From NCBI RefSeq assembly GCF_002159915.1, contig NZ_NFJP01000022.1, forward strand, positions 1 through 64,000: a stretch of 64,000 nt of DNA. The letters are read 5' to 3'. The notes beneath the pieces are model-generated. The model was not told the origin of the DNA. It made no database searches and worked only from the letters and a program-made list of their open reading frames with translations. This DNA comes from Gordonibacter sp. An230. GTDB taxonomy: Bacteria > Actinomycetota > Coriobacteriia > Coriobacteriales > Eggerthellaceae. Of the stretch, positions 144-20,969 are shown in pieces. How positions within the stretch are numbered: position 1 is the first letter of the stretch; each line of letters opens with the position of its first letter. The position numbers and the translations under genes are program-made.

Positions 144-509
144 GCTCCCTCGGCTGACATACGCCCGTCAGCGCCCCAGCTGCTGCTCTGCAGCTGGAGG
201 TCCCAAAGATGCTGGTAGAGGCCGTTTCTCGAAACGAGGTCGTCGTGGGTCCCCTCTTCGACGATGTTCCCGCCGTCGAGAACGACGATCTTGTCCGCGT
301 TGGCGATGGTCCTCAGGCGATGTGCGATGACGATCACCGTCTTGCCCGCGCAGAGGGCTCCGACTGCTCTCTGGATGAGCGTTTCGTTCTCCGGGTCGAG
401 CGAAGCCGTGGCTTCGTCAAGGAGGACCACGGGGGCGTCTTTCAAGAGGGCGCGCGCGATGGAGAGGCGCTGGCGCTCCCCTCCGGACAGAGCGGCGCCG
501 TTCTCGCTG
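140..509 (-). pseudogene. ABC exporter ATPase C-terminal fragment, cut by IS
   Basis: This is the C-terminal part of the nucleotide-binding domain of an exporter-type ABC protein. Visible are the signature LSGGERQR, the Walker B segment [12 protein letters not shown] and the H-loop IAHRLRT. The reading frame is open up to 509, where the left terminal inverted repeat of the insertion sequence begins, so the membrane domain and Walker A are lost. It is strikingly similar, at roughly 85-90% by eye, to the matching part of the ABC gene at 62335-64000. The copies are therefore paralogous members of the same ABC-DtxR unit. The remainder of the gene is not on the other side of the IS, where phage capsid sequence begins. 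Confidence 0.85.
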
Positions 510-539
510 TGAATTTGAATCTGCCCCGAATCCGTTGAC
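510..539 (+). repeat. IS left terminal inverted repeat
   Basis: Thirty bases starting TGAATTTGAATC and ending CGTTGAC. They match the reverse complement of 1794-1823 at 25 of 30 positions, which fixes the left boundary of the element. Confidence 0.9.
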
Positions 540-592
540 AGGTCGAGTCCCGTTTCGGCACCATTGCCGTTGCGGGGGAACGGAGGCGGACC

Positions 593-880
593 ATGGGAAA
601 ACCGTGCCCGAAGTACACGGCGGAGTTCAAGCGGCGCGCCGTGCAGCTGTACAACGAGAGGGGAACCACCTACGCGGAGGTCGCGCGCGAGATCGGCGTC
701 GACCCGTCGAGCCTCGCCGACTGGGTCAGAAGGGCCTCGGCCGCGGCGCCCGACGCCGAGGCGAGCCCCTTCCAGATGGCCGAGGACCTGCGGCGGCTCA
801 GGCGCGAGAACGAGCGGCTCAAAAGGGAGAACGAGATGCTTTTGAAAGCGAGCGCCTTCTTCGCCGGCAGGCAGCTGTAG
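593..880 (+). CDS. IS3-family OrfA, HTH protein
   Basis: A 95-residue protein with the helix-turn-helix of IS3 OrfA proteins ([14 protein letters not shown], then [17 protein letters not shown], residues about 7-45). A leucine-zipper-like coiled coil follows ([20 protein letters not shown]). OrfA binds the IS ends, and through a -1 ribosomal shift near its 3' end it yields the OrfAB transposase. OrfA lies in frame 2 and OrfB in frame 1, consistent with a -1 shift around 820-850. I could not single out a textbook slippery heptamer there; the short runs AAAAG at 821-825 and TTTTG at 841 are candidates. The stop is at 878-880. Confidence 0.9.
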
Positions 881-1788
881 GCGCCGAGGCGAAGGAGGCG
901 AGGTTCGCTTTCACCCTGCTCAGCGAGGGGCGCTGGAGCGTGTCGGAGATGTGCTCGGCGCTCGGCGTCACCAGGCAGGGCTACCACGCGTGGCGCTCGC
1001 GCGGGCCGAGCGGGTGCGACCTGCGCGACGCCGAGCTCGCCGGCGAGATCTCCGAGGTCTACGAGGCGAGCCGCCGCATCTACGGCGCCCCGAAGGTCTT
1101 CGCGGAGCTGCGCCGGCGCGGAGAGCGCACGTCGCGCAAGCGCGCGGCGCACATCATGCGCGAGAACGGCTGGGCCGGCACGACGCGCGGCTGCGCCAAG
1201 CGCCCCAAGGGCGAGGCCAGGCAGGCAGCGCCGCAGGCCAACTCGGCGCCCGACCTCGTGCGGCGAGACTTCAGCGCGGACGGCCCGGACAGGGCCTGGT
1301 TCGCCGACATCACCTACGTGCGCACGCACCAGGGGTGGCCCTGCCTGGCGGTCGTGATGGACATCTGGTCCAGGAAGATCGTCGGCTGGTCGATGTCGGC
1401 CCGCATGACGGCCGAGCTCGCCGACGACGCGCTGAGGATGGCGATCGTGAGGCGCAGGCCGCCCGGAGGCTGCATCCACCATAGCGACCACGGGAGCCAG
1501 TACGTCTCGCTCCTGATCGGCAAGACGATGCGCGAGGCCGGCATCAGGCCGTCGATGGGCTCGATCGCGAGCCCGTGGGACAACGCGGCGATGAAGTCGC
1601 TCATGGGGCTCGTCAAGGCGGAGTGCGTGCACGCCCGCACGTTCGAGACGCGGGATCAGGCGGCATTGGAGATATTCGACTACATCGAGTGCTTCTACAA
1701 CAGGGTGCGGATCCACTCCGCGCTCGGCAACCTCAGCCCCGAGGAGTTCGAGGCGAGGCATGCTCAGGAGGCCGCTTCGGCGGCGTAG
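841..1788 (+). CDS. IS3-family OrfB transposase, catalytic Glu replaced by Lys
   Basis: This is the catalytic rve/DDE domain of an IS3 transposase, expressed as an OrfAB fusion by -1 frameshift; the start given is the approximate shift point. It has the HTH_21 region ([19 protein letters not shown]) and then the RNase H fold with the first Asp in WFADITYV and the second in HHSDHGSQY. In the family the third residue, Glu, lies 36 residues after the second Asp, in NAxMESF. Here that position reads NAAMKSL, so a single GAG to AAG change would have replaced the Glu with Lys. The rest of the domain is intact up to [15 protein letters not shown]. Transposition activity in cis is therefore doubtful. 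Confidence 0.88.
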
Positions 1789-1793
1789 AGGGT

Positions 1794-1823
1794 GTCAACG
1801 AAATCGGGGTAAATTCAGATTCA
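1794..1823 (-). repeat. IS right terminal inverted repeat
   Basis: Partner of 510-539. It lies just after the OrfB stop codon and ends in CA at 1822-1823. The capsid gene frame on the minus strand runs into it, which adds a few IS-encoded residues to the truncated capsid protein. Confidence 0.9.
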
Positions 1824-2232
1824 CCTCGGTCTTCGTGGTCACTCCCTCGGTGGACGCGATCTCGCTGAACGTGCAGGCGTCGCCCTCAGGTGCCACTTGC
1901 GTGCGCTGTAGCTCGGCGCCAGCCTGGACGAAGCAGTCGATGATTCCGGCCTCCTCGACATCTATGACATCGGCGAAGAGTCTGATGGCCCGGTCGTAGG
2001 CGAAGGTGTGTGTCTCGTAGGTCCAGGTGATGCTGCCCGTCTTGTAGCCCACGTTACGCGTGTAGTCTCCAAGGCCCGTGACCTCTATCTTCGGAATGAG
2101 GATTTCCTTTGCGTTGCGACCGGCGCGTACCATGTTGCCGCCGCTGTTCAGGCAGTTTGACACCGCAGCCCTCTGGTAGACCTCGTCCAGGATACCAGTG
2201 TACTTCTTAGCGAATTCGATGCTGTTTGGCAT
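1824..2232 (-). pseudogene. Phage major capsid protein, 3' truncated by IS
   Basis: The first 136 residues of a tailed-phage major capsid protein of the P22-coat-like type found in Gram-positive phages. Typical features are a start SIEFAKKYTGILDEVYQ, then IPKIEVTGLGDYTRNVGY and a conserved ETHTFAYDRA segment. Family members are usually about 300-400 residues long, so more than half is gone. An excellent ribosome site (AGGAGGG, 8 nt upstream) supports the start at 2232. The scaffold gene lies 12 bases upstream. The frame continues a few codons into the IS repeat. The family call rests on recognised sequence style and on the neighbouring scaffold gene. Confidence 0.75.
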
Positions 2233-2244
2233 GTCTCAGCCCTC

Positions 2245-2742
2245 CTATGCGTTATCGTCGGAATCGTCTAGGCCGGCGAGCCTGCGCCAGCGTTTCATCG
2301 TCTTGCCCTCGTCGGAGCTTGTGCCCGCGTTAGGAAGTCCGGTCTTGCCGCCCTGGGGCTTGGTGGTGCGCGCATCAGCGAAAAGCCACGGCTCTGCGGC
2401 CTTGAGCGCGTCCACTTCGCCGTCGTAGTCGCCGAGCATCGCACGCGCCGCCTTCACGTTGCGCACGCCCGCGAGCTGCAGCCTGAAGTCGATACGGTCG
2501 GACTCACCCTGGGCCTTGAGCTCCGCGATCTCGCTGCGCAGCTGCTCGGCCGTCTCTGCGTTCTTGGCGGCCTTGGCAACCTGCGCCTCGAGCGCCGCGA
2601 TCTTCTCGTCGCGCTCGGCGACGGCCTTCTCCCAGTCGGTGCCGCTCACCTGCGGCTGGTCTTGCGTCGCCTGCTGCTGCCCGAGGTCTTCCTGGGCTTG
2701 CGGCTCTTCCTGCGTCTTATCGCCATGTGCATCATCTGCCAT
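2245..2742 (-). CDS. Phage capsid scaffolding protein (GP20/DUF4355-like)
   Basis: A 165-residue acidic protein. Its Gln/Glu-rich N-terminal tail is followed by a long coiled coil (WEKAVAERDEKIAALEAQV and onward, residues about 45-95), a short conserved stretch (RNVKAARAMLGDY) and a charged C-terminus. This arrangement is typical of scaffold proteins that template procapsid assembly and sit directly upstream of the capsid gene, as here. The ATG at 2742 has AAAGG about 10 nt upstream. Starts at 2763 and 2778 are also open, and the latter has GAGGG upstream. With the capsid gene broken, this gene can no longer serve virion assembly from this locus. Confidence 0.75.
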   Translation of the reverse strand: MADDAHGDKTQEEPQAQEDLGQQQATQDQPQVSGTDWEKAVAERDEKIAALEAQVAKAAKNAETAEQLRSEIAELKAQGESDRIDFRLQLAGVRNVKAARAMLGDYDGEVDALKAAEPWLFADARTTKPQGGKTGLPNAGTSSDEGKTMKRWRRLAGLDDSDDNA

Positions 2743-2868
2743 ATCGGCCTGCCTTTCGGTCATGGCCGACACATACAAATCGGCCCTCTAACACTGCGAA
2801 CAGGTTAGAAGGCCGTCACAAAGTGAAGTGAGGTTTGATTGTCAGCGCAATCTCTCGCTGAAGGGCAT

Positions 2869-4566
2869 CTACAGACCCCAGCCCTTCTTGAAGACCTCCA
2901 TCAAGTTCTTTTGGCGCTGCTCCACTACCTCTGGCGTCCACTCAGACTCGTTGAGGACCTGCGTGGTCAGTGCGTAGGACGATGTGCCCTTGCGCCCAGT
3001 GAAGTATTTTGCCTTCTTCTTGGCAAAGTCGAAGTTCTGAGCTTCCGAGTTCTTATACCTAGTCAATGGGACGAGGTTTGCAATCTTGTTCAACCAGTTC
3101 TCACGTTGTGCGACATCGGGCCATACGGTAGCCCATTCGCTGCCATCGCGTACTGTTTGCGGCAGCACGTGCTCTATCGTCAGAATCCGTGAGTCGTACG
3201 TGGCGGCTCCGTCTGCCACAAAGCTGTCGAGCCTCAATATCACGTAGTTCCTCTTGCGCGGTGTCTTCAGGTAGATATCGCCCTTCAGCGCAGCTATGAA
3301 CTGATCGCGCTCCTCCTCTGTGAGAAGGACCGTTTCCAATCTCGGGGAGTCATCTTGGCCATGTTCCGGACGCTCATCCATTTCGTCGAGTATCTGTACA
3401 TATCGATTGATGCGCTGGTTGATGTCCTTCGAGGTAACGTGCATGAAGGACGCGAGTCTTTCCAGGGCAATGAAGAACCACTGCACGTAATCCGAATTGC
3501 CTCTCCTGGTGGCAAGGAATTTGAGCGCGACGGGAACCCAGTCCGAGTTGTCGATGCGGTTGAGCCAACCGAGTCGGTCATTTACGACCTCCGAGCCGGT
3601 CGTGGCGGAATATGCGCAGCCCTTTACGTCCAAATAAGCTTCCGTGTAGGGCTCCAGCAGGTCGTCGATGAGGGCTTCTGGAGTCATGCCATCATGCTTC
3701 ACCACAAACTCAGTGAATTCCTCGTTGAGCGATTTCTTTGCCTTCTTCTTTGCGTACACCATGCGGATGCATGAGAAAACGTCGTCGAATCCAGATCGGC
3801 TCGCTTGGACCTCAAGCTCCTCCCATTTGTCCGCATAATCAGCTCTCGTGGTTTCGGGGATCTCAGCGATTACGTTTGCCTTGATGATGTCCATGGGCAG
3901 CAAGTCGAGGCCGCGACTGTTCATAACAGCGAAGACTCGGTATGCAGAGGACTGGCTGGGCGTCGATACGGCAACCATGTAGCATCTGGTCAAGAGGAAG
4001 GAGGTGAAGTCAACGAGCTTCTGAAGATCGTCTCCGAACTCCTCATCAATGGCTTTGTTGAGGGTCCTGCAGTTCTCCTGGATGTTGCGCTGCGCTTCGT
4101 CCTCCATTTGCGTTGGGTCGAGCGCAAGTAATCCGTCGATATCTATGCCCTGGATGTACTTGGAGAAGAAGGGCTGGTCGCGTTGTCGAAGAAAGAGCCT
4201 TGGTTGTTCCTCAATATGCATGAAGATATCGCCCTGAGACTTTATGCGTATGACGCAGTTGTCTCTCTGCACGCCGCTGAGCTTGCTCGCTATCGTGGCA
4301 AGGAGAATGGTTAGCGTGGTCAGGCGTTGTTGGCCATCAATAACCTCGGCCCTTCTCTCACCGTCTTGCTTAATCAGGACGGTGCTGCCCAGAAAGTAGT
4401 TCTCCTCGTCTTCTTCCATGAAGAAGTCTCTCAAGTCTGAGAAGAGCACGCCGGTCTCTTCGGTAGTCCAAGCATATGGTCGCTGGTACTGGGGAATGTG
4501 GTATTCGAAGTCATCGCTGAACACCTTACCAAGTGGGTACTCAGCGCCTGTAATCATCTTGCTCAT
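2869..4566 (-). CDS. DUF262/DUF1524 protein, GmrSD-like type IV restriction nuclease
   Basis: A 565-residue protein with an N-terminal DUF262 domain (YHIPQYQRPYAW at about 23-34 and IDGQQRLTTL at about 77-86, the nucleotide-binding motif). The C-terminal DUF1524 HNH nuclease domain has TIEHVLPQT and then WLNKIANLVPLTRYKN, residues about 455-515. In the GmrSD family these two domains cut phage DNA with modified cytosines, using NTP. The related BrxU enzyme is known beside some BREX loci. Here the gene follows brxA by 27 bases on the same strand, so it is probably the last gene of the BREX operon. It would complement BREX against phages with modified DNA. The whole coding sequence is visibly less GC-rich than its neighbours, a sign of separate acquisition. 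The target preference cannot be read from sequence. Confidence 0.85.
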   Translation of the reverse strand: MSKMITGAEYPLGKVFSDDFEYHIPQYQRPYAWTTEETGVLFSDLRDFFMEEDEENYFLGSTVLIKQDGERRAEVIDGQQRLTTLTILLATIASKLSGVQRDNCVIRIKSQGDIFMHIEEQPRLFLRQRDQPFFSKYIQGIDIDGLLALDPTQMEDEAQRNIQENCRTLNKAIDEEFGDDLQKLVDFTSFLLTRCYMVAVSTPSQSSAYRVFAVMNSRGLDLLPMDIIKANVIAEIPETTRADYADKWEELEVQASRSGFDDVFSCIRMVYAKKKAKKSLNEEFTEFVVKHDGMTPEALIDDLLEPYTEAYLDVKGCAYSATTGSEVVNDRLGWLNRIDNSDWVPVALKFLATRRGNSDYVQWFFIALERLASFMHVTSKDINQRINRYVQILDEMDERPEHGQDDSPRLETVLLTEEERDQFIAALKGDIYLKTPRKRNYVILRLDSFVADGAATYDSRILTIEHVLPQTVRDGSEWATVWPDVAQRENWLNKIANLVPLTRYKNSEAQNFDFAKKKAKYFTGRKGTSSYALTTQVLNESEWTPEVVEQRQKNLMEVFKKGWGL

Positions 4567-4593
4567 TGAATTCTCCGAATCTTCCTGATGCCG

Positions 4594-5304
4594 TTAGCAT
4601 TGGTTGAGCGACACCGTAAACTCTCGCCCAAAGTTCCCAATCGAGAACCGCGCATCCTCCACCAGCCGCTCCTTGCTCGCATGCAGCACGAACGGGAACA
4701 GCTCCGGCAACGCCTGCAGCTCCGTATACGACCGGTACCCAGACTGGTACGCCAGCATGTCCGCGTGCAGCAGGAACAGCGACAGCTCCTCGTCCGCATC
4801 CACGCGCGGTGCGAGCACGTAGCGTCCCTGCTTCACGCGCTGGATGACCCCGATTGCGTTCAGCGAGGCCAGCATCTTCTCCGAGCCCTTCACCACGGTG
4901 GAACGCTCGCCCCACTCGTCCAGGATCTTGAGCTTCAGCTGCGCCGCCGTGAACTCATCCTGGTACTCGCACATCTTTCCGATGAGTCGCACAAGGTCAC
5001 CGAACATCGGGAACGCCACCACGAGCATCCCCCAGTGGACCGCCAGCAGCTCGTAAGGATGACTTAACGCCAACTCCAGAGCCTTCGGCCGCAACGCCTC
5101 AAGGGCCGCGTCCTCCGCCACCCACGGCAGCAGCAGGATCTCGCGCGTCTTGCGCCGGTTGGTGTCGCTCGAAATCTCGAACTTCAGGTACTCCTCAAGC
5201 TCCTCGCGCATCTGCGTCGGTTCGAGCCCCTCGCCGGCAAGCTCGATGGTCTTGTTCAGCCAGGGCAACCTGATTATCCTCGTGAATCCAACCATCCTAG
5301 CCAT
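4594..5304 (-). CDS. brxA: BREX protein BrxA (DUF1819)
   Basis: A 236-residue protein that matches the BrxA/DUF1819 family in length and style. It has an N-terminal segment with LAGEGLEPTQMREELEEYL, helical middle parts, and a winged-helix-like C-terminal half (LKILDEWGERSTVVKGSEKML). BrxA is a small DNA-binding BREX component needed for defence in characterised systems, and its biochemical role is not settled. The ATG at 5304 overlaps the pglZ stop (ATGGCTAG), so translation is probably coupled. A GTG at 5313 and an ATG at 5295 are alternatives. It is the last canonical gene of a type 3 BREX cluster here. Assignment rests on the family pattern plus position. Confidence 0.8.
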   Translation of the reverse strand: MARMVGFTRIIRLPWLNKTIELAGEGLEPTQMREELEEYLKFEISSDTNRRKTREILLLPWVAEDAALEALRPKALELALSHPYELLAVHWGMLVVAFPMFGDLVRLIGKMCEYQDEFTAAQLKLKILDEWGERSTVVKGSEKMLASLNAIGVIQRVKQGRYVLAPRVDADEELSLFLLHADMLAYQSGYRSYTELQALPELFPFVLHASKERLVEDARFSIGNFGREFTVSLNQC

Positions 5305-6757
5305 TGCATGCACCTGCTCTCACTGTTATGAACGGCACGACCACCTCGTCGATGCTCATGCCGCCATGGCTCATCACGTTCTCTCCCGGGTTGTCGAACG
5401 ACACGCCCGACGGGCACACGTAGTACCTCAAGCCCTGCGGCAGGAAGCCGCTGGGGCATTGTACCAGCCCGTATTTTTCCTGCTTGTCCGAGACGTCCGC
5501 GAGGTCGTTCACCACGAGCATCCTGCGGCTCTTCGTCTCGGTCTCCACGCCGGTGCCGGTAACGCGCCCGCGACCCACGCACGGCGTGTTCCCGTGGTCG
5601 GCACTGATGTACACGTCCATTCCGGCCGCAGAAAGCCGTCGCACCAGCCCGGCAAGCTTCCCGCTATCCCGCAGGAGTTCGATATCCTTCAGCATCCCAG
5701 CACGCCCGCCGTACTGCCCGTGCACGCGCTCGTCCACGTCCAGTATCACGAACGCTGCGCACTCGCAGCCGTAGGGCAACTCGGCGTCGTAGCCACGCAG
5801 GTAGGCCATCCGCTCGTCACCGATGCCCCAGCTTCTCACGCGCCCGACGAACTCGCTCTTCTCCTTGTCCGTTGTCCAAGGGCTCGCAAGGTCGCGAGGG
5901 TACTTGCCCGAGAGCAGGCTCTGCCGCGACAGCGATGTCACGGTGGGCACCATGGCGAAGGCGGCGGACTCCTCGTAGGGGATTCCCGCAAAAGACTCGC
6001 GAAGCACGCGCCAGTCGAATTCCGACATGCCGTCCATCACCACGATGGCGAACCGGTCGCTGCGCGTGCGCATGTACTCCATGGCAGAGCTCACGAGTAC
6101 GGGAGTCTCTTCGGCATACTCCATGGTGAGCTGCCCGAACTTCGACACCACGAAGTCCCTGAATGCGCCGTCGGTGAGCTCGTTCGTGCTCCGTTCGATT
6201 CCGTAGCGCGCCCTCGTCACGTCGATGCGTGCCTTCAGCTGCGCCACCGCGATCCAGCCACGATAGCCTGCAGCAACGCTCGTCAACCGCACGAGCTCGC
6301 CCTCCAGCTCGTCGCAGACGCGCTCTGCCGTCTCTTGCACGTTCACGCGTGTCTCAAGGTATGCCCTCGTGGCCTTTGCATCCGAGGGGTACACATAGTC
6401 GCGCTCGTAGGCGACGGCAAGGAAGTCCAAGTCCAGCCCATCAGCGGCCCTCAACGTTGCGGTATCAAGCTTAGGGAACAGCCCACCCAGCGACACGTCG
6501 TACCGCTGCATCAGCTGCGCTAGGTCGTACGGCACATACGCATCGTCCGACGCGATCACGGCAAGCTTCTCGCCAGCCTTAAGCGCATCCTCCCACCCGA
6601 TGCGGAATGCCAGGTCGTCCTCCCAGCGCACCACGGTGAAACCGCGCCGCTCGAAGGCATAGGCGTACTCGGCCCGCGACTCCACGCCGTGGTCTACCAG
6701 CAGAACCGAAGTGCAGTACATCGCGCTGGACTCGTTGAACAAGTACTCGCCGAGCAT
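5297..6757 (-). CDS. pglZ: BREX alkaline-phosphatase-superfamily protein PglZ
   Basis: A 486-residue protein with the PglZ domain. The metal-site motifs expected of the alkaline phosphatase superfamily are visible: VVMDGMSEFDW (about residue 246) and YISADHGNT (about residue 403). PglZ is the protein common to all BREX types. Its phosphatase or nuclease activity and its partner contacts are needed for phage exclusion and methylation. The protein is shorter than type 1 PglZ (about 800 residues or more), as expected for type 3. The start ATG at 6757 overlaps the helicase stop codon (TGATG), which decides it against an upstream in-frame start at 6790. Confidence 0.9.
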   Translation of the reverse strand: MLGEYLFNESSAMYCTSVLLVDHGVESRAEYAYAFERRGFTVVRWEDDLAFRIGWEDALKAGEKLAVIASDDAYVPYDLAQLMQRYDVSLGGLFPKLDTATLRAADGLDLDFLAVAYERDYVYPSDAKATRAYLETRVNVQETAERVCDELEGELVRLTSVAAGYRGWIAVAQLKARIDVTRARYGIERSTNELTDGAFRDFVVSKFGQLTMEYAEETPVLVSSAMEYMRTRSDRFAIVVMDGMSEFDWRVLRESFAGIPYEESAAFAMVPTVTSLSRQSLLSGKYPRDLASPWTTDKEKSEFVGRVRSWGIGDERMAYLRGYDAELPYGCECAAFVILDVDERVHGQYGGRAGMLKDIELLRDSGKLAGLVRRLSAAGMDVYISADHGNTPCVGRGRVTGTGVETETKSRRMLVVNDLADVSDKQEKYGLVQCPSGFLPQGLRYYVCPSGVSFDNPGENVMSHGGMSIDEVVVPFITVRAGACNG

Positions 6758-9429
6758 CACGACTCCACCAGCCTCACGAGCAGCATGCACCTGAACTCTG
6801 GCAGAACCTGCCGCTCCTTGGCGTAGGACGCCTCCATCTCGGCTCGCTCCGCCTCGATCCTCGCGAGCTTGGCGGCGCGTATGTTCTCGATGCCAACGCG
6901 CCGCGCGGCCTCATGCCGCAGCTCAAGCGCGTAGGCGTACTTGTCGTGGTTCTCCTTGGTCGCCCTCTCGTGGCGCTCGGAGAGGTCCTTGAAGTCGTTG
7001 TAGGCGAAGTCCTGGCTCAGCTCCTCCAACCGGGCCCACGTCTCGGCATCGGCGTTCGAAGCAGTCCCCACGGTAAGCCTCACGCCGGGCCGAAGCAAGG
7101 CATCCATGATGCGCTTGCCCGCGATGGGCCGCAGCACCAGCCTGTCGTTCACGAACACGGGCACCACGCGCGTCGAGCGTCGGTCGTCGGCGATGGAGAG
7201 CTCCCACAGCATGAACCAGCCATCCTCGTTGGGGAAGTCCTCAATCTCCACGCTCAGCACGTCGGCACTCCTGTCCTGCACGACGCTCGCATGCAGCAGC
7301 TTCTCGGCATCTGGGCTGTCGAGTGCGAGTCCAAGCGGCAGCGCGGCCTTGCCGCCGCGCCACGCGCTGTAGTGGGCGAAGGCCCGTCCCAGTGCAGCGG
7401 TCACGTCGTAGTCCGACTCAACGCCCACGAGATCGCCAAGGTCCTTGTCCTCGCGGATTATCTCCTGGTATGAGGCAACGTTGGACACCTGCTCGCGCAG
7501 CTCCTTCTCGATGCGCCCAACGGACCTCTCCACGGCTTGTGGTTTGCCGATGCTGCCCATGTAGGCGTTCGTGAAGTCCAGGTCGCACGCCTCGCTGTCC
7601 AACACGTCCGAGTATTTGTCGATGCCAAGCTCGTCAAGGATGACCGAGAGCTTCTCCTCGATGACCTCGTGCACGCGGCTCTCCACCGTGTCGTCGATCA
7701 TGAAGTTGTACACCTCGACGTCGCGCGTCTGCCCGATGCGGTCCACACGGCCGCACCGCTGCTCGATGCGCATGGGGTTCCAGGGCATGTCGTAGTTGAT
7801 GACCACGCTCGCGAACTGCAGGTTCAGGCCCTCGCCGCCGGCGTCCGTGGAGACAAACACGTCGGTCTTGGTGCGGAACTCCTCGGTCACGGCGTTGCGC
7901 TCATCGATGCTCATGCTGCCGTTCAGGATGGATACGGTGAAGCCCCGGCGCTCAAGCAGGCGTTTTAGGTAGTCCTGCGTAGCCATGAACTCGGTGAAGA
8001 TAATGACCTTCCTGCTGCCCTCGGCGAGCACCGCGTCGAGCGTGTCGAAGAGAGCCTCTACCTTAGCATCCTGGTACTGCAGCTCCGCCCTTTGCGCAAG
8101 GTTCACGAGGTCTTGCAGCTCGGCAATCTCGGACCTGTCGTTAAGCGACGGTGCCTCGAATGCGGCCTCGTCGCCGTCCTCGATGTCCGTCTCGCCGATG
8201 TCGGTCTCGTTCATGTGCCGCTGTTGCGTACCGCCGCCCTCGAGCATGGCAAGCCTCCGCTCGAGCGACTGTCTTACGGCCGCCGTGCTGCTCGTCACCA
8301 TCCTCTGCATGATGATGAGCAGGAAGATCAGGCACATGTTGCGGCTCTTCTGCCGCATGGCCTGGTTGTAGGTGTGGGAAACGTAGTCCGAGACGCGCCG
8401 GTACAACTCCTCTTGCAGCGTGTGTCGAGCGTCCCAGCCGATGCGCACCAGATGCGTCGCGCGGTTCTTGAAGAGCAGGTCGCCCTTGTTGTCTATAGCT
8501 TCGCGTTTCTCCGTGCGGATGAGGTACGGTGCCACCTGCGAACGCACGACCGACTTCTCGTTTGGGAACGCGTCCCGATCGAGCAATCTCACCAGGCGCA
8601 GGAACGGTTCGGACTTGCCGTTGTGCGGCGTCGCGGTCAGCAGAAGCAGGTATGGGCTCGCCTGCGCCAGCAGACGCCCCAGTCGGTGCCGGGCGACGTC
8701 TCCGGTCGAGCCCGCCACGCGGTGCGCCTCGTCGATGATCACGAGATCCCAGTTGCCATTCACGACGGCGTTGATTCGCTCGTCGTTGTATTTCTGAATG
8801 CGCTCCTCGCTCCACCCGAACCGCTGCTCCAGCGGCTTGATGGAGTCCATGGGCGTGACCACCTGCTCGAACTCGCGGTACACGTTCTCGCCCTCGGTGA
8901 CCTTGCGGATGGCGTCGAAGTCAGAGGGCAAAAGCAGGTGGAACTTCTCGTTGAACTTCTCCTGCATCTCGGCCACCCACTGCGTGGCGAGGCCAGTGGG
9001 GCACACCACGAGCGTTCGGCGCACGAGTCCGCGCGTCTTGAGCTCCTCCAGGATGAGCCCGGCCTCGATGGTCTTTCCCAGACCCACCTCGTCGGCCAGC
9101 AGGTAGCGAACGTTGTTGTTGGCCAAGGCGCGGTTGAGCGCGTGAAGCTGATGCGGCAGCGGTATGAGGTTGCGCGAAAGCGGCGTCAGAACGCCCTCGG
9201 CCACTTCGTTCTTGATGCGCGCGAGCTCCATCACGAAACGCAGGTAATCCTCGTCATAGGTGACGGTGTTTGCCACTGGGCGCAGGACTCCCTCCGAGGC
9301 GCGGTACGTTTCGCCGGTGGCAGGGTTCAGCACGCGATACGAGTGGATGCCCCACAGCACCGCATGCTCGATGATGCGCACCGTCTCCTGCGTAGATGTG
9401 TCGTATGCAAGGTCTCCGACTTCCAACAT
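6757..9429 (-). CDS. brxHII: BREX type 3 helicase BrxHII (SNF2-like)
   Basis: An 890-residue superfamily 2 helicase. Motif I is YLLADEVGLGKTIEAGL (about 90-106), motif II LVIIDEAHRVAG (about 230), motif III LLLLTATPHNG (about 262), and motifs V/VI are TDAGGEGLNLQFA and QRCGRVDRIGQ (about 555-595). The long N- and C-terminal extensions are typical of RapA/SNF2-like helicases of defence systems. In type 3 BREX this helicase replaces the Lon-like BrxL of type 1 and probably moves along or remodels DNA during recognition of invading phage. The stop overlaps the pglZ start; the methylase gene ends 10 bases upstream. Confidence 0.92.
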   Translation of the reverse strand: MLEVGDLAYDTSTQETVRIIEHAVLWGIHSYRVLNPATGETYRASEGVLRPVANTVTYDEDYLRFVMELARIKNEVAEGVLTPLSRNLIPLPHQLHALNRALANNNVRYLLADEVGLGKTIEAGLILEELKTRGLVRRTLVVCPTGLATQWVAEMQEKFNEKFHLLLPSDFDAIRKVTEGENVYREFEQVVTPMDSIKPLEQRFGWSEERIQKYNDERINAVVNGNWDLVIIDEAHRVAGSTGDVARHRLGRLLAQASPYLLLLTATPHNGKSEPFLRLVRLLDRDAFPNEKSVVRSQVAPYLIRTEKREAIDNKGDLLFKNRATHLVRIGWDARHTLQEELYRRVSDYVSHTYNQAMRQKSRNMCLIFLLIIMQRMVTSSTAAVRQSLERRLAMLEGGGTQQRHMNETDIGETDIEDGDEAAFEAPSLNDRSEIAELQDLVNLAQRAELQYQDAKVEALFDTLDAVLAEGSRKVIIFTEFMATQDYLKRLLERRGFTVSILNGSMSIDERNAVTEEFRTKTDVFVSTDAGGEGLNLQFASVVINYDMPWNPMRIEQRCGRVDRIGQTRDVEVYNFMIDDTVESRVHEVIEEKLSVILDELGIDKYSDVLDSEACDLDFTNAYMGSIGKPQAVERSVGRIEKELREQVSNVASYQEIIREDKDLGDLVGVESDYDVTAALGRAFAHYSAWRGGKAALPLGLALDSPDAEKLLHASVVQDRSADVLSVEIEDFPNEDGWFMLWELSIADDRRSTRVVPVFVNDRLVLRPIAGKRIMDALLRPGVRLTVGTASNADAETWARLEELSQDFAYNDFKDLSERHERATKENHDKYAYALELRHEAARRVGIENIRAAKLARIEAERAEMEASYAKERQVLPEFRCMLLVRLVES

Positions 9430-9439
9430 GGTATTGCGC

Positions 9440-11974
9440 CTAACCCACGCGGCTCAGGCTGATGTCGTAGTACATGAGCAGGTTGGGGTCTTCTTGGATG
9501 GTCGCCGCCGGGAGCCTGTTGGCAAGATCGACGATTGCCTGGTAGTTCTTTTCCTTCCATAGATGGGAAAAGCCCACGCGGATGGCCTCGGAGCGGAATA
9601 GCTTCAGCTTGCCCTTGCTCTTGAGATAACCGTCGAACTCGCGCAGCAGCGACTTCTCGCGCAGCTTGGCGATGTCGCCTTCCTTCTTGGTGTCGGGGAC
9701 GTACCAACGTCCTTTCTCGTCCTGCAAGAAGTTCTCTTCTAGAAGGACGGCAAGTTCGGGCATCGCCTCGTAGCGGTCAACTGACTTCACTTCTTGCATA
9801 AACATGGGTTGTATAACTGAGTATGTTCTGGGCTCTTCTTCGAGAAGTCTGTAAAGCCAGCCGATTGCTGTCTTTTCATTTGTTACGTGTAAGGCAAATT
9901 CAACAGACTCAAGGTTGAGCTTGATACGTGCCGTATCGTACTCATTTACTTGATCGGCCAGGAAGTACATGCCATCGCGCTTCAAATACCTTGCGTCAAG
10001 TCCCTGGTAGTAATCGGTCGCATCTAGCGGTACTGGAATTCCGTGCATGACGTGATAGGCAACCATACGGTCGAACAGTAGGAATGCTTGTCTTTCCGAA
10101 ATCGGCTCGATCATATTGTTTCGCTGTACGACTATCGGCAGCTTTTCGAGATGCTGCCGGGTGAATGCCCATGCACTCTCTTCGTTTGATTCATATTGAT
10201 CGAGAATCACACTTAGCTCCATCGAAGGCTTGTAGGCCGATATAACTAAGTCTTGTTTCACCGCCATGGTGTAGCTAAGCTGCTTGGTCGTTCCCTTTTG
10301 TTTATCTAGTGTTCTTACATCAGCTATTACAAAACCTGCTCGCTGGATGGCTTCTTGTATTGAGTTCCAAATAGCATTCTTAGAGTTATGGAACTCAACG
10401 GTTAGCCATCTACCGGGTTTTAAGACGCGATAATACTCGCAGAAGCTTTTGCTTAAGAGCTCTTGGTACTCGGATATTCCTTTATCCTGCGACACATTAA
10501 CAATTGCCTCAGTAGCATTGTTGGTGAAACACCTCAGCCAAGATTCTTGAATAAAGTTCAATTCCGAATAGTGGAGGTTGTCACCGAACGGCGGGTCAAC
10601 AAATATGTAATCGATGCATGAGGACGGCACGTTTCTTAGGTCGGTCGCAGATTGGGTGCTTACCAAAGAGTGGCCAAGAATTTGGCCGACTGTCATTATT
10701 GACTTTAGCTTGTCTTCGAGTAAAGAAATTATGTTTATCTCTGCCTGGAATGCAGGAATGTAAAGCGTTCCCGACAATGGTCCCACATGACGATGGTGAC
10801 TGGGCATATACCGGTTTAGTTTATGTGAGCGTGAATAAATTGACGACAGCCAAAACAAAAGTAGTGATTTAACCCTTTTGTCAGATTGACGCATAATTAG
10901 GTCTCTGCAAGTTGCGAGAACAAACAGATTGCGCTTCGTGTAGAAATGGTTTACACGCGTGATGCCAACATGATAACCGGCTCGCCAGTAATCTCCCCAC
11001 TGTTTGCCTTTATGCATCATCAAATCTGATGGATACCAGACTCCAATATTCATGTCCCGTATCTTCTGTATGATGGCAAGATCAGAAGTGTCAGGTTCTT
11101 TGGCGTAAAGCTTTCCCGCATAATGATAGCTAATTCGAACAGGGCTCACTTTTGCCTGCAAACTATGTTCATCGGATTGCTCATCATACTGAGATTCAAG
11201 GGCCTTTTCGCATTCGCCTTTCTTCAAATCAGCTCCACAATGTGGACAGCGTGGCTTCTGCTTCATTTTCTCTTCGCCTTGCTCAACAGCGGCATCCCAG
11301 TAAGAGAATTCTCTACTGCAAGCGGGGCAAATATACTGCTCGGACCATATTGTGTAATTAATGGTCGCCTTGGCATTTGATCCGGGCACGTCCGTGCTGT
11401 ATACCCAGTCGCACGAATCATGCAAAACGCGAAGAACATCGTTGGCAGCCTGTTCAAATGCAGAGATATCGACTTCACTATTGTAATTTTTTGCAATGAA
11501 TGTTGCCTCAGGCGAAAGGTCAGTGAGTATCGCGTGTCTAGCGCCAATATTGTTGACGTCCGTTTCGCCAATTCCTAGACACGTTGGCAAGTCGGCACAC
11601 ATAAGAGCTGCCGCGCCTGTCATGCCCGTTCCGCAAAAACCATCGAGAACGATGTCGCCCGGCTTTGTGTAGTGAAGCAGATATCGCATTATCGCTTTAT
11701 AGGGGACTTTAGTGTGATAACTGTGCGCCATATAAAGTGGGTCGTGTTTCCCTTCGCTAACATCAGCAGTAAATGGTTCACGTTGATAGGTATCGCCGAC
11801 TTCTTCATAGGGTGTTCCGTTCTCAGTAATGAATTCCTCGATGAACGGATTCGGACACGCCGTGTAGTAAGGCGCGTCCGAGAGTTCGATGATGGCCTCG
11901 TCAGTTGCGATGGGGAATCCCTCGATATCGCGGACTCTGTCGATGTCCGCGCTGGTAAGCTTCCTTTGCTCCAT
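9440..11974 (-). CDS. pglXI: BREX type 3 adenine-specific DNA methyltransferase PglXI
   Basis: An 844-residue site-specific DNA methyltransferase. The S-adenosylmethionine site is IVLDGFCGTGMTGAAA (about 110-125), the catalytic motif is VDPPFGDNLHYSEL (about 472-485), and a CPAC/CPHC zinc ribbon lies between (about 215-245). In BREX the methylase marks host DNA at a non-palindromic site and takes part in exclusion of unmodified phage. The base composition is uneven: the middle, about 9.8-11.6 kb, is clearly AT-richer than both gene ends and than the adjacent BREX genes. That fits exchange of the target-recognition part by recombination. The ATG at 11974 lies 17 bases after the brxC stop. Confidence 0.9.
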   Translation of the reverse strand: MEQRKLTSADIDRVRDIEGFPIATDEAIIELSDAPYYTACPNPFIEEFITENGTPYEEVGDTYQREPFTADVSEGKHDPLYMAHSYHTKVPYKAIMRYLLHYTKPGDIVLDGFCGTGMTGAAALMCADLPTCLGIGETDVNNIGARHAILTDLSPEATFIAKNYNSEVDISAFEQAANDVLRVLHDSCDWVYSTDVPGSNAKATINYTIWSEQYICPACSREFSYWDAAVEQGEEKMKQKPRCPHCGADLKKGECEKALESQYDEQSDEHSLQAKVSPVRISYHYAGKLYAKEPDTSDLAIIQKIRDMNIGVWYPSDLMMHKGKQWGDYWRAGYHVGITRVNHFYTKRNLFVLATCRDLIMRQSDKRVKSLLLFWLSSIYSRSHKLNRYMPSHHRHVGPLSGTLYIPAFQAEINIISLLEDKLKSIMTVGQILGHSLVSTQSATDLRNVPSSCIDYIFVDPPFGDNLHYSELNFIQESWLRCFTNNATEAIVNVSQDKGISEYQELLSKSFCEYYRVLKPGRWLTVEFHNSKNAIWNSIQEAIQRAGFVIADVRTLDKQKGTTKQLSYTMAVKQDLVISAYKPSMELSVILDQYESNEESAWAFTRQHLEKLPIVVQRNNMIEPISERQAFLLFDRMVAYHVMHGIPVPLDATDYYQGLDARYLKRDGMYFLADQVNEYDTARIKLNLESVEFALHVTNEKTAIGWLYRLLEEEPRTYSVIQPMFMQEVKSVDRYEAMPELAVLLEENFLQDEKGRWYVPDTKKEGDIAKLREKSLLREFDGYLKSKGKLKLFRSEAIRVGFSHLWKEKNYQAIVDLANRLPAATIQEDPNLLMYYDISLSRVG

Positions 11975-11991
11975 GGTTTATCCGCCGTCCT

Positions 11992-14900
11992 TTACTCAGA
12001 CCTAACGATGATGCGCAGGTTCTCGGGGTCCTTGCCGGCTACGTAGCTGGCGATGATGCCGTCGAGCTTCTTCTTGAAGTCGGCGGCGGTGCTGGGGCCG
12101 AGCTTCGCCAGTTCCTGCACCAGCTCACCACCCTCGATGTAGACGGGTTCGAAGCCCTTGAGCAGTGCCTCGATTGCCTCGATGAACTTGTCGTCCACGC
12201 GGACGGGCAGCTTTCCGCTCTCGACGAAGGCGTCGATTTTACGTTGCTGCGCCTCATCGAGGAACCGCTTCTCGCCAAGCACGATGGGGTCGTCAATGGT
12301 GTTGAGTAGCGTGGTGGTCCACTCGTTAACGAGGGCTTCGATTTGCTCTTCAATGTCGTCGAGTAGACCATCCACATTCTGGGCTACATCGTCCAGACGA
12401 TAGTGGCAGTGCGGGCAAGTCGAAGTCGTCTTTAGTTCGGTCGGAGTGAGGTCGTAACATACGGTGAGGCCAGCGAGCGCCGTGTCGATGGCGTCGAACT
12501 TAGCCTTCGAGAGGATGCTGAGCTTGGCGAGCTTTCGCAGGTTGGCGACCTCTCCGCTCTCCTGGAGCGCCTGCCTCCGCTTGGCCTCGTTGACGCCCAG
12601 GCGCTTCTTCTTGTGCGCCGCCAGGTAGTGGTCGATGTAGTCGCTCTTCACCTTGCTGAGCGCCGCGATGGCGGTCTGGGCCGCAGCCTCGCCGGATGCA
12701 CCGTCGTAGATGCTGTCGCGTTCGCGGCGGAAGACGTTCTTCGCGTCGTCGAGCGCGGCCCGAAGCGACTGTCCGATGGCTGCGTATTCGATACCCTGCA
12801 GGTACGTGACAATCTGCGAGCATTCCTGCTGGAACGCGAGGTACTCAGACACGATGAAGGCGCGGTCAAGCTGCTCTTCCAGCTCGTCAATCTCGTCCAT
12901 CGTGTGCTTGAAGTTGTTGAGCTTGGCGGGCGTATTGAACTTCGCGGCGTAGTTGCTGAACTCGTCCTTTATTGCCGCGCAGGCGTCTCGCAAAGTCTTG
13001 GCCTCCTGCGCGTTCGCGAGGGGCTCATCCCACAACATGAAGCCGTCGGTCAGTTTCCGCTCAGAGAAGGCGGCGCTCTGGCTCAGCTCCTTCGCCTTGG
13101 CGAGCAGGTCGGCCACGGCCTTCTCGCGCGTCCCAGGGCTGTTGAGCAGGCCGGGGTTCAGTTCCAGCACCTCGAACAAGCGGCGAAGCTCTGCCAACGG
13201 CAGGTCGGCCGGTTTCGAGATGGTCTTAAAGTGCATGAGCTCGTACGTGCTGGTCTTGGGGACTACGTCAAGGTTCGACGCCGTGATCGTCTGCTTGTCG
13301 GTGCGCATCACGGCATGCCCGCTGTACACCAACGATAGCAGGACGATGACGGCGAACGCGTTGTTGTAGCCGAACCTCTTGTCGAAGCTCCCGCGCCCGG
13401 GTATGTCGTCGAACAGGTCGCCGTAGTTGATTACGCCCTGCTGAGGAAGCTTGTTGAGCAGGTCGACGTAGTGCTGCGCGTACTGCGACTGCTCGGGCTT
13501 CAGCTTTCCGCTTGCATCGAGTAGGTCGAAGCTCGCGAGCATGTTGCGGCCCAGCTGCGTGTTGCGCCCGACAATCTGGGCGTATGCCTTTTCCAGGCTG
13601 TCGGCCATATTCTGACGCGTTATCTTAACTCGCATGCGCGGGAACGCCGGGTACTTGTCGCAGAAGTAGCCGTCGAGGCAGATGGCAGCAGCGAGGTCGA
13701 TGACGTCCTTGAAGGTGGCGTCGCGGTTGTAGCGCCCGCTGAGTGTCTCGACGAGCTTCTTGCGCGTGCCCTTGTAGCCCACGTCGAACATGGTACTCAC
13801 GCCTGCGCTCAGTGTGCGGATGAGCTTTGCCTTCGTCTGCTGGGCCTTCCCGGCGTAGGCGTCGCGCTCTTTGCCCTCGCTGATGGCGGCGAGCTCGCTG
13901 GCAGCCGCGTAGAAGCGCAGCTCCTCGGTGAACTCGTCGTTTGGCTTGAAGTAGAAGTAGACCTCGTCCTTGAGGTTCTGGGCACCGCCGTCGCTTCCGT
14001 ACGGCGGCATGATGTGCAGATAGAAGTCGCGCTCAGGCTGAGCCGTGCTGCGCTCCTTCGGCAGCCCCATGAACAGGTAGCCCTCGCGGAACATGCTGTG
14101 GCTGTCCCAGTTCAGGTCGTACTCGTAGATCTCGAAATTCGTCACGTACTGCTTGGCCGTCCATTCAAGACAACCGTACACGATGCCATAGAAGTAGCGG
14201 TTCAGGTCGCCCTGCGCCACCACGTCGGCCTTCTGCTTGATCTTCTCGTCGTAGTCAACGACCTTGTTCACGTCGATGTAGTACTGGTTGTTGGCGTCGT
14301 TATGGATGATGAACTGGCCCGATACCGTGGTCATGATGTCGCGCAATATCGTGTTCACGATGCCCAGCAAAAAGTCGCTGTCCTGCTCGGGGAGCGGCAG
14401 GTACAGGCAGAGGTCGTCCTTCAACCCTTCGGCGGTGAGGCCCGTCTGCACGTCCAGGCCGCTCGTGGTCAGGCGATGTACGCTCAGCGCATATATGATC
14501 TGCATCGCCACCGGCTTGTAGGCGGGCTTGGGGAAGGCACGCTTGATGATGTCCTCAAGCTGTCCGCTTGCCTGCAGCACTCGGCTCACGGTCGGGTCGC
14601 TGCGCAGCATGCCGTCCGCCTTGATGACGGGCCAGTAGTCGTCGAACGACTTGATGCCCGGTGCGTCGGTCGGCACCTCCTGGTCGAAGATGCCGCGGAT
14701 GCACACCGATATGTTCTTCAGGATGTGGCGATTCTCGATGAGGTACGCCTTGTTCAGCACATCAATGTAGGCAGGGTGGATCGGGAACATGCCCACGAAC
14801 TCCTCCATGCGCGACGACATGCCGCCGTATAGGCTGCTGAACTTCTCCAGATGCTCGCGGATGAGCGCCTTCTGCTCAGCCGTCTTCTTCAAGATGCGCT

Positions 14901-15669
14901 CCGAGACGACGTACGACGTGGCCTCCTTGGTGATGATGACCTGCGAGAAGCGGTCGCCCACGCGCCGCAGCGACTCGGAGACGAAGCTGAAGCGCGGGTT
15001 GTCGAAGATCTTCTCCTGAACGCCGAAGATGACGCGCATGCGGCTCTTCGAGCACATTTCGCCGAGTGCGCGGAGGAACTCCAGGTCGAGCACGATCTGC
15101 CGCTCGTCGCGCGAGCTCAGATACGAGAAGAACTCGTCCACAACAATGAGATAGCCACGGTCGCCGTACTTGGAGGCGAACGCCTTCATGATGTCGCGGA
15201 TGAGCTGCTTGTTGTCCATCACCGTCGAGAAGTCCGGCATCTTGAAGTTGATGCCACGACGGTCGAAGTCGTCCTGAATGTAGCCGCAGAGAATGTCGCG
15301 CAGCGGCATGGTCACGCCGCCGATCTCCACGCGCAGCACTTCGAACTTGCCCGCGATGGGCTCTATCGCCTTTGCGAAGCCCTGGTTCTGCAGGTACGGA
15401 AGGTTCGCATCGTCGTTCGCCACGGCGGAGATGACCGACATCAGGTGCGACTTACCGGTTCCGTAGTTGCCCACCACGAGGACGCCCTTGTTGTCGATGA
15501 CCTCATCCATCTGTAGCTGGTCGATGAGGCGCGTCTTCAGCTGGTCTGCCATCGTGTCCGACATTACGTAGGTCTCGACGAGCTCACGCGCCTTCAGTTC
15601 CTGGTTCGCGTCAAGCAGCTGAATGGTCGATTCTATTGGCTTGAAGCTGATGAGCTCTGAGTACTTCAT
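11992..15669 (-). CDS. brxC: BREX AAA+ ATPase BrxC (PglY-like)
   Basis: A 1225-residue ATPase. Walker A is GVLVVGNYGTGKSHLMS (about residues 62-78) and Walker B is YLIVVDEFFSYLS (about 165-177), followed by a sensor-like segment MRVIFGVQEKIFDNP. The large C-terminal part is helical and contains a CPHCHYRL zinc-like pair (about 1090). BrxC is the big ATPase of BREX and is thought to form part of the complex that holds the methylase and PglZ. The ATG at 15669 has GAGGAG 8 nt upstream and starts MKYSELISFKP; a longer open frame to 15837 overlaps brxF and lacks support. Length and motifs fit type 3 BrxC. Confidence 0.92.
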   Translation of the reverse strand: MKYSELISFKPIESTIQLLDANQELKARELVETYVMSDTMADQLKTRLIDQLQMDEVIDNKGVLVVGNYGTGKSHLMSVISAVANDDANLPYLQNQGFAKAIEPIAGKFEVLRVEIGGVTMPLRDILCGYIQDDFDRRGINFKMPDFSTVMDNKQLIRDIMKAFASKYGDRGYLIVVDEFFSYLSSRDERQIVLDLEFLRALGEMCSKSRMRVIFGVQEKIFDNPRFSFVSESLRRVGDRFSQVIITKEATSYVVSERILKKTAEQKALIREHLEKFSSLYGGMSSRMEEFVGMFPIHPAYIDVLNKAYLIENRHILKNISVCIRGIFDQEVPTDAPGIKSFDDYWPVIKADGMLRSDPTVSRVLQASGQLEDIIKRAFPKPAYKPVAMQIIYALSVHRLTTSGLDVQTGLTAEGLKDDLCLYLPLPEQDSDFLLGIVNTILRDIMTTVSGQFIIHNDANNQYYIDVNKVVDYDEKIKQKADVVAQGDLNRYFYGIVYGCLEWTAKQYVTNFEIYEYDLNWDSHSMFREGYLFMGLPKERSTAQPERDFYLHIMPPYGSDGGAQNLKDEVYFYFKPNDEFTEELRFYAAASELAAISEGKERDAYAGKAQQTKAKLIRTLSAGVSTMFDVGYKGTRKKLVETLSGRYNRDATFKDVIDLAAAICLDGYFCDKYPAFPRMRVKITRQNMADSLEKAYAQIVGRNTQLGRNMLASFDLLDASGKLKPEQSQYAQHYVDLLNKLPQQGVINYGDLFDDIPGRGSFDKRFGYNNAFAVIVLLSLVYSGHAVMRTDKQTITASNLDVVPKTSTYELMHFKTISKPADLPLAELRRLFEVLELNPGLLNSPGTREKAVADLLAKAKELSQSAAFSERKLTDGFMLWDEPLANAQEAKTLRDACAAIKDEFSNYAAKFNTPAKLNNFKHTMDEIDELEEQLDRAFIVSEYLAFQQECSQIVTYLQGIEYAAIGQSLRAALDDAKNVFRRERDSIYDGASGEAAAQTAIAALSKVKSDYIDHYLAAHKKKRLGVNEAKRRQALQESGEVANLRKLAKLSILSKAKFDAIDTALAGLTVCYDLTPTELKTTSTCPHCHYRLDDVAQNVDGLLDDIEEQIEALVNEWTTTLLNTIDDPIVLGEKRFLDEAQQRKIDAFVESGKLPVRVDDKFIEAIEALLKGFEPVYIEGGELVQELAKLGPSTAADFKKKLDGIIASYVAGKDPENLRIIVRSE

Positions 15670-15682
15670 GGTGCGGACTCCT

Positions 15683-16105
15683 CTAGTAGATGCAGGTGAT
15701 GTCGTAGCGGTCGATATCGAACGCCTTGTAATCCTGACAGCCTTCCACTGCGTACAGAAGCTGGCTGTCCTCGAAACGACCGGGCCAAACAAGGTCGAAA
15801 TGGTGCTTGCGGTATGCGCTGCAGAGAAGCGCCACAACGTCCACCTTGTACGCCGGGTTGAAAAGTACGTCGATGTCGCGGATGACCACGCCCTCGGGCA
15901 AATCCGTCAGCGCCGATACAAAGCACGACTCAAGCCGAATGCTCCGTAGAGTCGGCGAGATGTCCGCCAAACGCCGGGCTATGGCCACGTTCATCGAGAT
16001 TGCGTCGTCAGTTATGCCATCCAGCTCGCAGCAGAAGAAAAGCGGCCGGGGATAGCTCGCTTGCCTGCGTCGAAGGTACCGTCTTCCCGAGATAGCCCTT
16101 CCCAT
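15683..16105 (-). CDS. brxF: BrxF-like protein lacking the usual P-loop
   Basis: A 140-residue first gene of the BREX cluster, 13 bases upstream of brxC. The C-terminal two thirds follow the pattern I remember for BrxF of type 3 systems: SMNVAIARRLADIS, then a VVIRDIDVLFNPAYK strand-helix where family members have LLDNxELLFDP, and WPGRFEDSQLLYA near the end. BrxF is normally described as a P-loop NTPase with GPxGSGKT near residue 25. Here the equivalent stretch reads LFFCCELDGITDD, with no GK[ST], and the following helix looks shortened. The ATG at 16105 has AAAGGG upstream, and an in-frame stop lies not far upstream, so the motif is not hidden in a longer protein. Confidence 0.72.
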   Translation of the reverse strand: MGRAISGRRYLRRRQASYPRPLFFCCELDGITDDAISMNVAIARRLADISPTLRSIRLESCFVSALTDLPEGVVIRDIDVLFNPAYKVDVVALLCSAYRKHHFDLVWPGRFEDSQLLYAVEGCQDYKAFDIDRYDITCIY

Positions 16106-16678
16106 CACAGTCCCTTTCGGGATATGAGTACAGCCTCAGAAGGCCGCCTCGACGGGAATAAGACAGCTGCGGAAAACATAGTCCAAATCGGTCCTTTACA
16201 AGCTCTGATGACAGACTTTAGAAGTATATCGCACTATTCCACGATTCCTTCACAATTCCCGAGCCCACACAGGATGTCTGCATTTGATAAAGGCGCGAAA
16301 GGGCGTTATCAGCTGATTATGACGAGAAGGTCATAGCATCTGAGTGGAGAGGCGCGGCGAAAGAAGATAAGAACTGCGAGTCGTCCGTGTAAGCTTGTCA
16401 TCGCAGCCCAGTGCGCCTCACGTTGTCGAATTTGTTTTGCCGCCATCCCTGGCCGCCACTACACGCCATCAGCCAGCGCCTCCCGACCGCTCCACTAGCG
16501 ACCGGCACCCGGCAGAGCTCACCAGAAGCCGCCCCAGAGCCGCAACAGGCAAGCCCGCAACCCAACCTCACTTGCTCAACCAGCAAGCGAAAGTGGGCTT
16601 CAGGCAGCCTCACCTGAAGCCCGCTACCAGCCGAGACTCCCACGTACAAAAGAGCGCGTCACCTATGCCGAGACCGCC
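16106..16678. other. Gene-free stretch upstream of the BREX operon
   Basis: About 570 bases without a convincing coding frame. The part next to brxF (16110-16390) is mixed in composition and should hold the BREX promoter, though I cannot point to clear -35/-10 boxes. The part nearer the portal remnant contains a strong hairpin (16595-16622). A minus-strand frame at 16398-16649 exists but shows no recognisable protein features. This is the junction between prophage sequence and the BREX insert. Confidence 0.5.
16595..16622. terminator. Strong hairpin beside portal remnant
   Basis: Perfect 10-bp arms GGGCTTCAGG and CCTGAAGCCC enclose an 8-base loop, extendable by a few pairs. Only a weak T-rich tail follows on either strand (CTTTCGCTT on the minus strand). 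It is a plausible terminator for the former portal transcript or a structured boundary element. Confidence 0.45.
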
Positions 16679-17275
16679 TCAGGCAGTCCCGCTCATGACC
16701 GCTTCCCGTTTGACGGCACCCGTACCAATCTCAGACGCCCGAGCGCGGGCAACCGACTCCTCCTCGCCATACCACTTGACGCGGTACTCCCAGGCAGCCA
16801 TGGTGACCCCGACCTCGCGCATGTCCTGGTCCTTCTCGACAGCCGTATCCTGCACGATGGAATCGTCGTACTGCACGCGCATGCAGCAATCATCGGGAAT
16901 GCTCTCGCCGAACCCACGCGAGACGCCCATGACAGCCCTTGCGATGCCCGTAATGGCCCCTTCAAGCGCGTTCTCATGCCTGCGGATGTTCCGCATAAGT
17001 GCAGAGTTGCCCGAGGACACCTCGGTGGCCGTGCGAACATACCCACGTGATTCGTCGAAGTCGAAATAGCCCAGCCCGAAGCCGCAAAGATCCCCGAGCA
17101 TCTGCAGGGCGATACGGAAAGCCTCTTACTGCGAGCTTGTGCGCAGCGCGGGCGCGAACTCCTGAATGGTGTCCTCGGTCGACATGACCTTGCGAAAGAC
17201 GGTACAGTCCTGTCTGCCAAAAGGAATGGAGATGACCTTGTCCCCGGTCTTTTCAAGACCTTAAGCACATTTTAC
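16679..17275 (-). pseudogene. Phage portal protein, C-terminal remnant with stop and frameshift
   Basis: The reading frame ending at 16679 encodes a segment typical of SPP1 gp6-like portal C-terminal domains: GFGLGYFDFDESRGYVRTATEV, then the helical stretch NSALMRNIRRHENALEGAI, then CMRVQYDDSIVQD. The same frame continues upstream through KTGDKVISIPFGRQDCTVF and MSTEDTIQEFAPALRTSSQ but is broken by a TAA near 17127. A further one-base loss near 17244 separates it from upstream coding. The N-terminal half of the portal and the terminase are absent. Portal genes lie upstream of scaffold and capsid genes in such phages. This is also the order here, except that the BREX operon separates them. Confidence 0.72.
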
Positions 17276-20897: not shown

Positions 20898-20969
20898 ATA
20901 GTCCTCCCACATACTGTTGTGATGTTATTTTACAGCTTGCTTTGCGGGGTCCTGTCCCATGCATGGACA

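Follow-up and report, generated by a model that had tools for sequence, protein, structure and literature searches.

The window analysed here, a 64,000-nucleotide (nt) stretch of Gordonibacter sp. An230 (contig NZ_NFJP01000022.1, positions 1 to 64,000), carries a type 3 bacteriophage exclusion (BREX) operon lying between genes for phage head proteins. The first 17.3 kb of the window were re-examined with profile searches (PADLOC, PHROG, Pfam), by which the coordinates and gene names of a first-pass annotation (portal remnant, BREX, a DUF262/DUF1524 gene, scaffold, capsid) hold. In the order of minus-strand transcription, the arrangement (positions 1823-17254) comprises a portal C-terminus, brxF, brxC, pglXI, brxHII, pglZ, brxA, a GmrSD gene, the scaffold gene and a capsid N-terminus; the cargo proper occupies approximately 2823-16414. 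Features are on the minus strand unless stated otherwise.

The six BREX genes stand on one strand in the canonical type 3 order. The first, brxF (15683-16108), matched the PADLOC BrxF profile (E 1e-14), and its full-length identity is 74% to the homolog at locus L154 (Atopobiaceae) and 67% to that at locus L172 (genome G162, uncultured Coriobacteriaceae RUG14646). It is followed by the brxC/pglY ATPase gene (11992-15669; PADLOC BrxC E 0, Pfam DUF6079 E 0), the pglXI methyltransferase gene (9440-11974; PADLOC PglXI E 0), the brxHII helicase gene (6757-9429; PADLOC BrxHI/BrxHII E 6e-298), pglZ (5297-6790, 497 amino acids (aa); PADLOC PglZ E 2e-52) and brxA (4594-5313; PADLOC BrxA E 3e-52). All six reading frames are open and, judged by size and by an alignment to L154 and L172 that runs from end to end, full-length for the clade; a frameshift-truncated PglZ was considered and rejected, since the PglZ of close relatives is equally short. 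The region upstream of the operon, at the left end of the cassette (16109-16414), shares 71% identity with the corresponding region of L172. At the right end, the DUF262/DUF1524 gene (2869-4566) encodes the Pfam domains GmrSD_N (E 5e-37) and GmrSD_C (E 2e-27) and is of the GmrSD type (type IV restriction).

On the right, the cargo is bounded by a border (2743-2822) consisting of CTTTGTGAC, a hairpin and a ribosome-binding site, conserved in most aligned loci. Beyond it are the intact head scaffold gene (2245-2742; phrog_31118 E 9e-42, phrog_194 scaffold E 1e-4) and a truncated major capsid gene encoding the N-terminal ~135 aa (1823-2232; phrog_422 positions 1-132 of 297, E 7e-34), which is interrupted by an IS3-type insertion sequence (~510-1822, plus strand) with matching terminal inverted repeats and a transposase gene (535-1788; PHROG transposase E 7e-98). 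On the left, the cargo abuts the 3' end of a structured RNA element (16415-16456), which corresponds to that end of the copies in the relative G122, in L133, L138 and others; approximately 390 nt of this element are deleted in the window copy. The stretch between the portal stop and the RNA core, left of the deletion (16477-16678), is 86% identical to G122, and the portal gene itself retains only its C-terminal ~190 codons (16679-17254; phrog_533 positions 355-482 of 495, E 2e-20) and lacks a normal start. The portal N-terminus, terminase, integrase, capsid C-terminus and tail are absent at the window locus. Additionally, the C-terminus of an ABC (ATP-binding cassette) transporter (140-445, minus strand) ends at the side of the insertion sequence opposite the capsid fragment, two neighbouring genes of 484 and 387 aa past the portal remnant (18295-20912, minus strand) have no clear PHROG match, and no Rfam family was found in the window.

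Phage flanks and the slot between portal and scaffold

Both sides of the cargo matched one relative, genome G122, with 87.8% DNA identity over 779 nt on the portal side and 82.3% over 903 nt on the scaffold/capsid side. Unrelated phage fragments around a chromosomal island are thereby ruled out, and the first-pass placement of BREX between the portal and scaffold genes of a single phage stands. The fragmentary phage genes of the window, and the absence of phage head genes near the BREX locus of L154, might suggest that BREX is a chromosomal island whose two sides were joined by phage fragments independently; this is highly improbable, given the similar identity of both flanks to one relative, borders that are those of a shared slot, and the same gene order in an intact-looking prophage at L172. 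An assembly artefact, which could be suspected from the contig end at which the window begins, the included insertion sequence and the 73 contigs of the genome, is hardly credible either, as both slot borders fit the relatives and L172 shows the same order in an independent assembly.

L172 was found by a BrxC search of genome contigs. Its order is a full-length portal gene, the RNA element, BrxF to BrxA, further genes, a TTTGTGAC border, scaffold and capsid, and its BrxF-BrxA proteins are 57-90% identical to those of the window. The surrounding prophage encodes an integrase near tRNA-Glu, a helicase/primase, a large terminase and tail genes and is intact-looking; the same BREX block in an intact-looking prophage, for which a search had been proposed with the annotation, was therefore recovered.

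A second prophage of the same genome, on contig C6, shares 75% DNA identity with the window over scaffold and capsid and 73% over the portal, with protein identities of 75% for the capsid and 77% for the window portal against residues 307-487 of the C6 portal. Judged by its gene set (integrase, large terminase, intact portal of 493 aa, scaffold, capsid, tail), it too is intact-looking. Its portal-scaffold interval holds an HKD-SNF2 helicase, a type III methyltransferase and restriction enzyme, and a GmrSD that is 86% identical in aa to that of the window; in both defence blocks GmrSD is the last gene before the scaffold. The annotation had left the carrier as a prophage or a phage satellite. 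Defence cargo is common in satellites and the window retains only a few head genes, yet the C6 and G162 prophages encode integrase, large terminase, portal, capsid and tail genes, so that a prophage stands as the carrier and a satellite is very unlikely.

Of 138 family genomes, 20 encode this capsid, as do 58 viral-collection loci. The slot set was defined as the 27 loci, window included, with a portal, a scaffold and a large insert between them; the inserts range from 7.4 to 15.7 kb (median 10.0, quartiles 9.4 and 10.4). Cargo was called by PADLOC or Pfam, either directly or via membership in a tested protein cluster, and defence-type genes were present in 26 of the 27 slots, L131 being the sole slot with none recognised. 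The cargo types include type I, II, IIG and III restriction-modification (R-M), Mza, McrBC, MkoA-like, MADS-like, HKD-SNF2 and BREX. The same portal-scaffold-capsid order without this BREX, sought as a second check proposed with the annotation, was thus encountered with other cassettes and sharp junctions, and also near-empty at L112, where the portal-scaffold gap is ~1 kb with no cargo. In L111 the gap is 2.1 kb, and direct repeats around cargo were seen in this locus only; its 2-kb insert (2970-5382 of the oriented locus) is flanked by a duplication that comprises the TTGTGA/hairpin together with the scaffold gene start. At the distant L147, an ordinary minor head protein gene occupies the slot position, consistent with the annotated view that minor head genes otherwise hold this place. 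Constant phage genes therefore flank unrelated defence cargo with sharp, shared insertion borders, as in a defence hotspot. Separately, capsids of many relatives (e.g., L112-L115, G162:C38:31878-32891) have an insertion of ~45-50 aa near residue 228.

In G122 the slot holds a type 1 BREX, of which BrxC, PglX, PglZ and BrxL matched PADLOC; a pair of small upstream genes, judged by position and sequence only, probably represents brxA and brxB. With type 1 BREX in G122 and type 3 in the window and L172, BREX entered the slot at least twice; carriage of BREX by a prophage, as annotated, therefore holds, and a one-off landing does not. In this type 1 system (L118:4781-17701, minus strand), pglX reads as two frames of 500 and 549 aa, and is perhaps broken or phase-variable. 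Another type 3 BREX was seen on a viral-collection contig (L181 / L193-L194, IMG/VR 3300021255_003723) beside phage-replication-like genes.

Cassette borders and the border RNA

The right border, GTGAC with a hairpin and then the scaffold ribosome-binding site, is present in 27 of 28 aligned loci, with the longer TTGTGAC in 25, and agrees in further genomes; the sequence upstream of it is unrelated among loci. TTGTGAC was also considered as a repeated phage-wide promoter and rejected, since the C6 phage has only one convincing site. The left boundary of the cargo directly follows a GC-rich conserved element that ends in GGCGGCA...AAATTC. Between the phages at L130 and L148, the 3533 nt leading up to and including the terminus of this element share 99.6% identity, the next ~8.5-9.7 kb differ, and the match returns at CTTTGTGAC; L138 and L140 follow the same pattern, with the match resuming ~30 nt into the right border. 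These differences are whole-cassette replacements between near-identical phages.

The left element is a structured RNA of ~400 nt, of which 12 copies were aligned. It folds into a single long rod (z -14.1 in L131, -16.7 in the C6 copy) whose internal loops are conserved; one of these loops pairs a conserved GGCTGA with GAAGAC. Covariation was observed, as 37 of 108 consensus pairs changed on both sides and 96.3% of alignment cells pair, vs. 87.8% after shuffling and no more than 41.9% after sliding. On the phage-sense strand, G-U cells outnumber A-C cells (63 vs. 7), which points to an RNA made from that strand. Copies adjoin the portal in slot-bearing phages (minus strand; L131:8396-8811, L133:13277-13697, L153:14120-14700), and in most fetched loci the RNA lies between portal and cargo. 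In the C6 prophage and its close relatives, the portal-RNA interval (L153:14038-15367, minus strand) additionally contains an opposite-strand small gene resembling a helix-turn-helix regulator and another small gene.

No Rfam family matched the element at the gathering score, and a relaxed search of the C6 copy returned sub-threshold matches only. Searched with a model of the RNA tip, 8 of the 138 family genomes gave a match, as did 35 in a class-wide sample of 398 genomes, spanning three families. At two loci the tip adjoins other genes, named here from sequence reading only: it precedes a type I R-M-like operon in L205 (2552-2626, plus strand), and in L206 (14179-14249, minus strand) it has a methylase/DUF262 pair on one side and another gene on the other, with no portal match within the fetched stretch of either. 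The element is partly deleted in L110. As regards a strict tie of the RNA to cargo, near-empty L112 has a moderately structured region at the RNA position, its genome giving no match to the tip model.

These borders bear on how cassettes move within the slot. On either side, the same sequences mark the ends of many unrelated cassettes, exactly or very closely, and the RNA element also adjoins defence-type genes where no portal was found, as would be expected if movement depended on a border-specific mechanism using the hairpin or RNA element and the TTGTGAC site. However, no recombinase was recognised among the cassettes examined, the RNA tip folds best as phage-sense RNA, and the kilobase-long conserved flanks are enough for homologous exchange; such a mechanism is therefore considered unlikely. 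The simplest and most likely route of exchange would be homologous recombination between related phages within the conserved flanks, portal/RNA on one side of the cassette and scaffold/capsid on the other. As a tentative suggestion, possible rather than probable, the slot could be a specialised cassette platform in which the RNA acts on the neighbouring cassette, insulating or timing expression there or aiding exchange. The border RNA appears to be previously undescribed and provides a new object for study.

Probable carriage and predicted function of the window cassette, and decay of its phage

Overall, it is very probable that a temperate phage, since degraded, carried the type 3 BREX and GmrSD as a cassette in the recurrent defence slot of its group, between portal (with RNA) and scaffold. 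Only one of the 138 family genomes has the window BrxC, whereas in another family L154 has a BrxC 90% identical to it, at a locus with no portal, scaffold or capsid match; BREX was therefore acquired horizontally. Plasmid and phage DNA collections gave no DNA match, and the nearest phage records by protein have a capsid identity of only ~43% (e.g., Eggerthella phage PMBT5, 42%). In an empty-site comparison, two congeners matched the prophage flank over short stretches only, from which the insertion site is unreadable.

Within a lysogen, BREX would be expressed from its own upstream region, PglXI would methylate the BREX motif in host and prophage DNA, and replication of unmethylated superinfecting phages would be blocked, with GmrSD predicted to cut modified phage DNA. 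Sharing the methylation of the host, the prophage DNA would be spared on induction. In the window, the phage has decayed and the defence genes have stayed.

By its remaining genes, the window phage is a relic of a temperate phage and its BREX appears intact, a pattern that fits the keeping of defence genes after phage decay. Compared with L154, five BREX genes gave nonsynonymous divergence (dN) of 0.04-0.17 and synonymous divergence (dS) of 0.65-1.7, and pglXI gave dN 0.23 with saturated dS; dN well under dS wherever dS is estimable speaks for the proposed carriage and retention. Several points weigh against them: the dN/dS comparison partly reflects selection predating the arrival of BREX in the phage of the window; this copy, as part of a relic, is no longer mobile; several of the relatives are metagenome assemblies; and we infer both the activity of BREX and the route of cassette movement.

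Comparison with known systems

Known phage hotspots mostly hold short defence systems, for which capsid capacity is given as the cause. The ordinary-looking temperate phages described here, with 7-16 kb cassettes in the middle of the head operon, provide a concrete vehicle for large immune systems; the phages of this group apparently reserve one slot for bacterial immune systems of this size. Additionally, the slot makes cassette exchange testable and marks a place to seek new defence systems. Among open-access papers, a search on prophage-encoded BREX returned nothing beyond one paper about a BREX inhibitor encoded by a phage, prior description elsewhere being possible, and the word 'prophage' does not occur in a 2026 survey of BREX diversity.

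The window has all six genes of type 3 BREX in the canonical order given in PMC10799925, and differs in its location in a prophage head operon, a PglZ shorter than the PADLOC profiles and the added GmrSD gene. Pairing of BREX with a GmrSD-family type IV enzyme is also found on a plasmid defence island, where BREX and BrxU are reported to give complementary protection (PMC8565348); here, the BREX is type 3 and on a prophage, and the function of GmrSD is predicted. Like the large conserved bacterial RNAs GOLLD, ROOL and OLE (PMC12286853), the border RNA is large and conserved, whereas it has no Rfam match at the gathering score and is essentially one rod of ~400 nt.

The slot resembles the P2 and P4 hotspots in being a fixed phage locus with differing defence systems across relatives (Rousset et al. 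2022, PMC9122126). Those hotspots average 3.2 and 2.6 kb and are reported to lack BREX and type I R-M, and that of P2 lies between a replication gene and the portal, whereas the slot described here lies between portal and scaffold, has inserts of 7.4-15.7 kb, among them type I R-M and BREX of types 1 and 3, and is flanked by an RNA. Prophage hotspots of Vibrionaceae and Bacillus, near integrase or regulator genes (PMC9122126), are alike in the diversity of prophage-borne defence; the present slot is instead inside the head operon. Phage-borne defence hotspots are therefore already known, and what differs here is the head-operon site, the content of BREX and type I R-M, and the flanking RNA.
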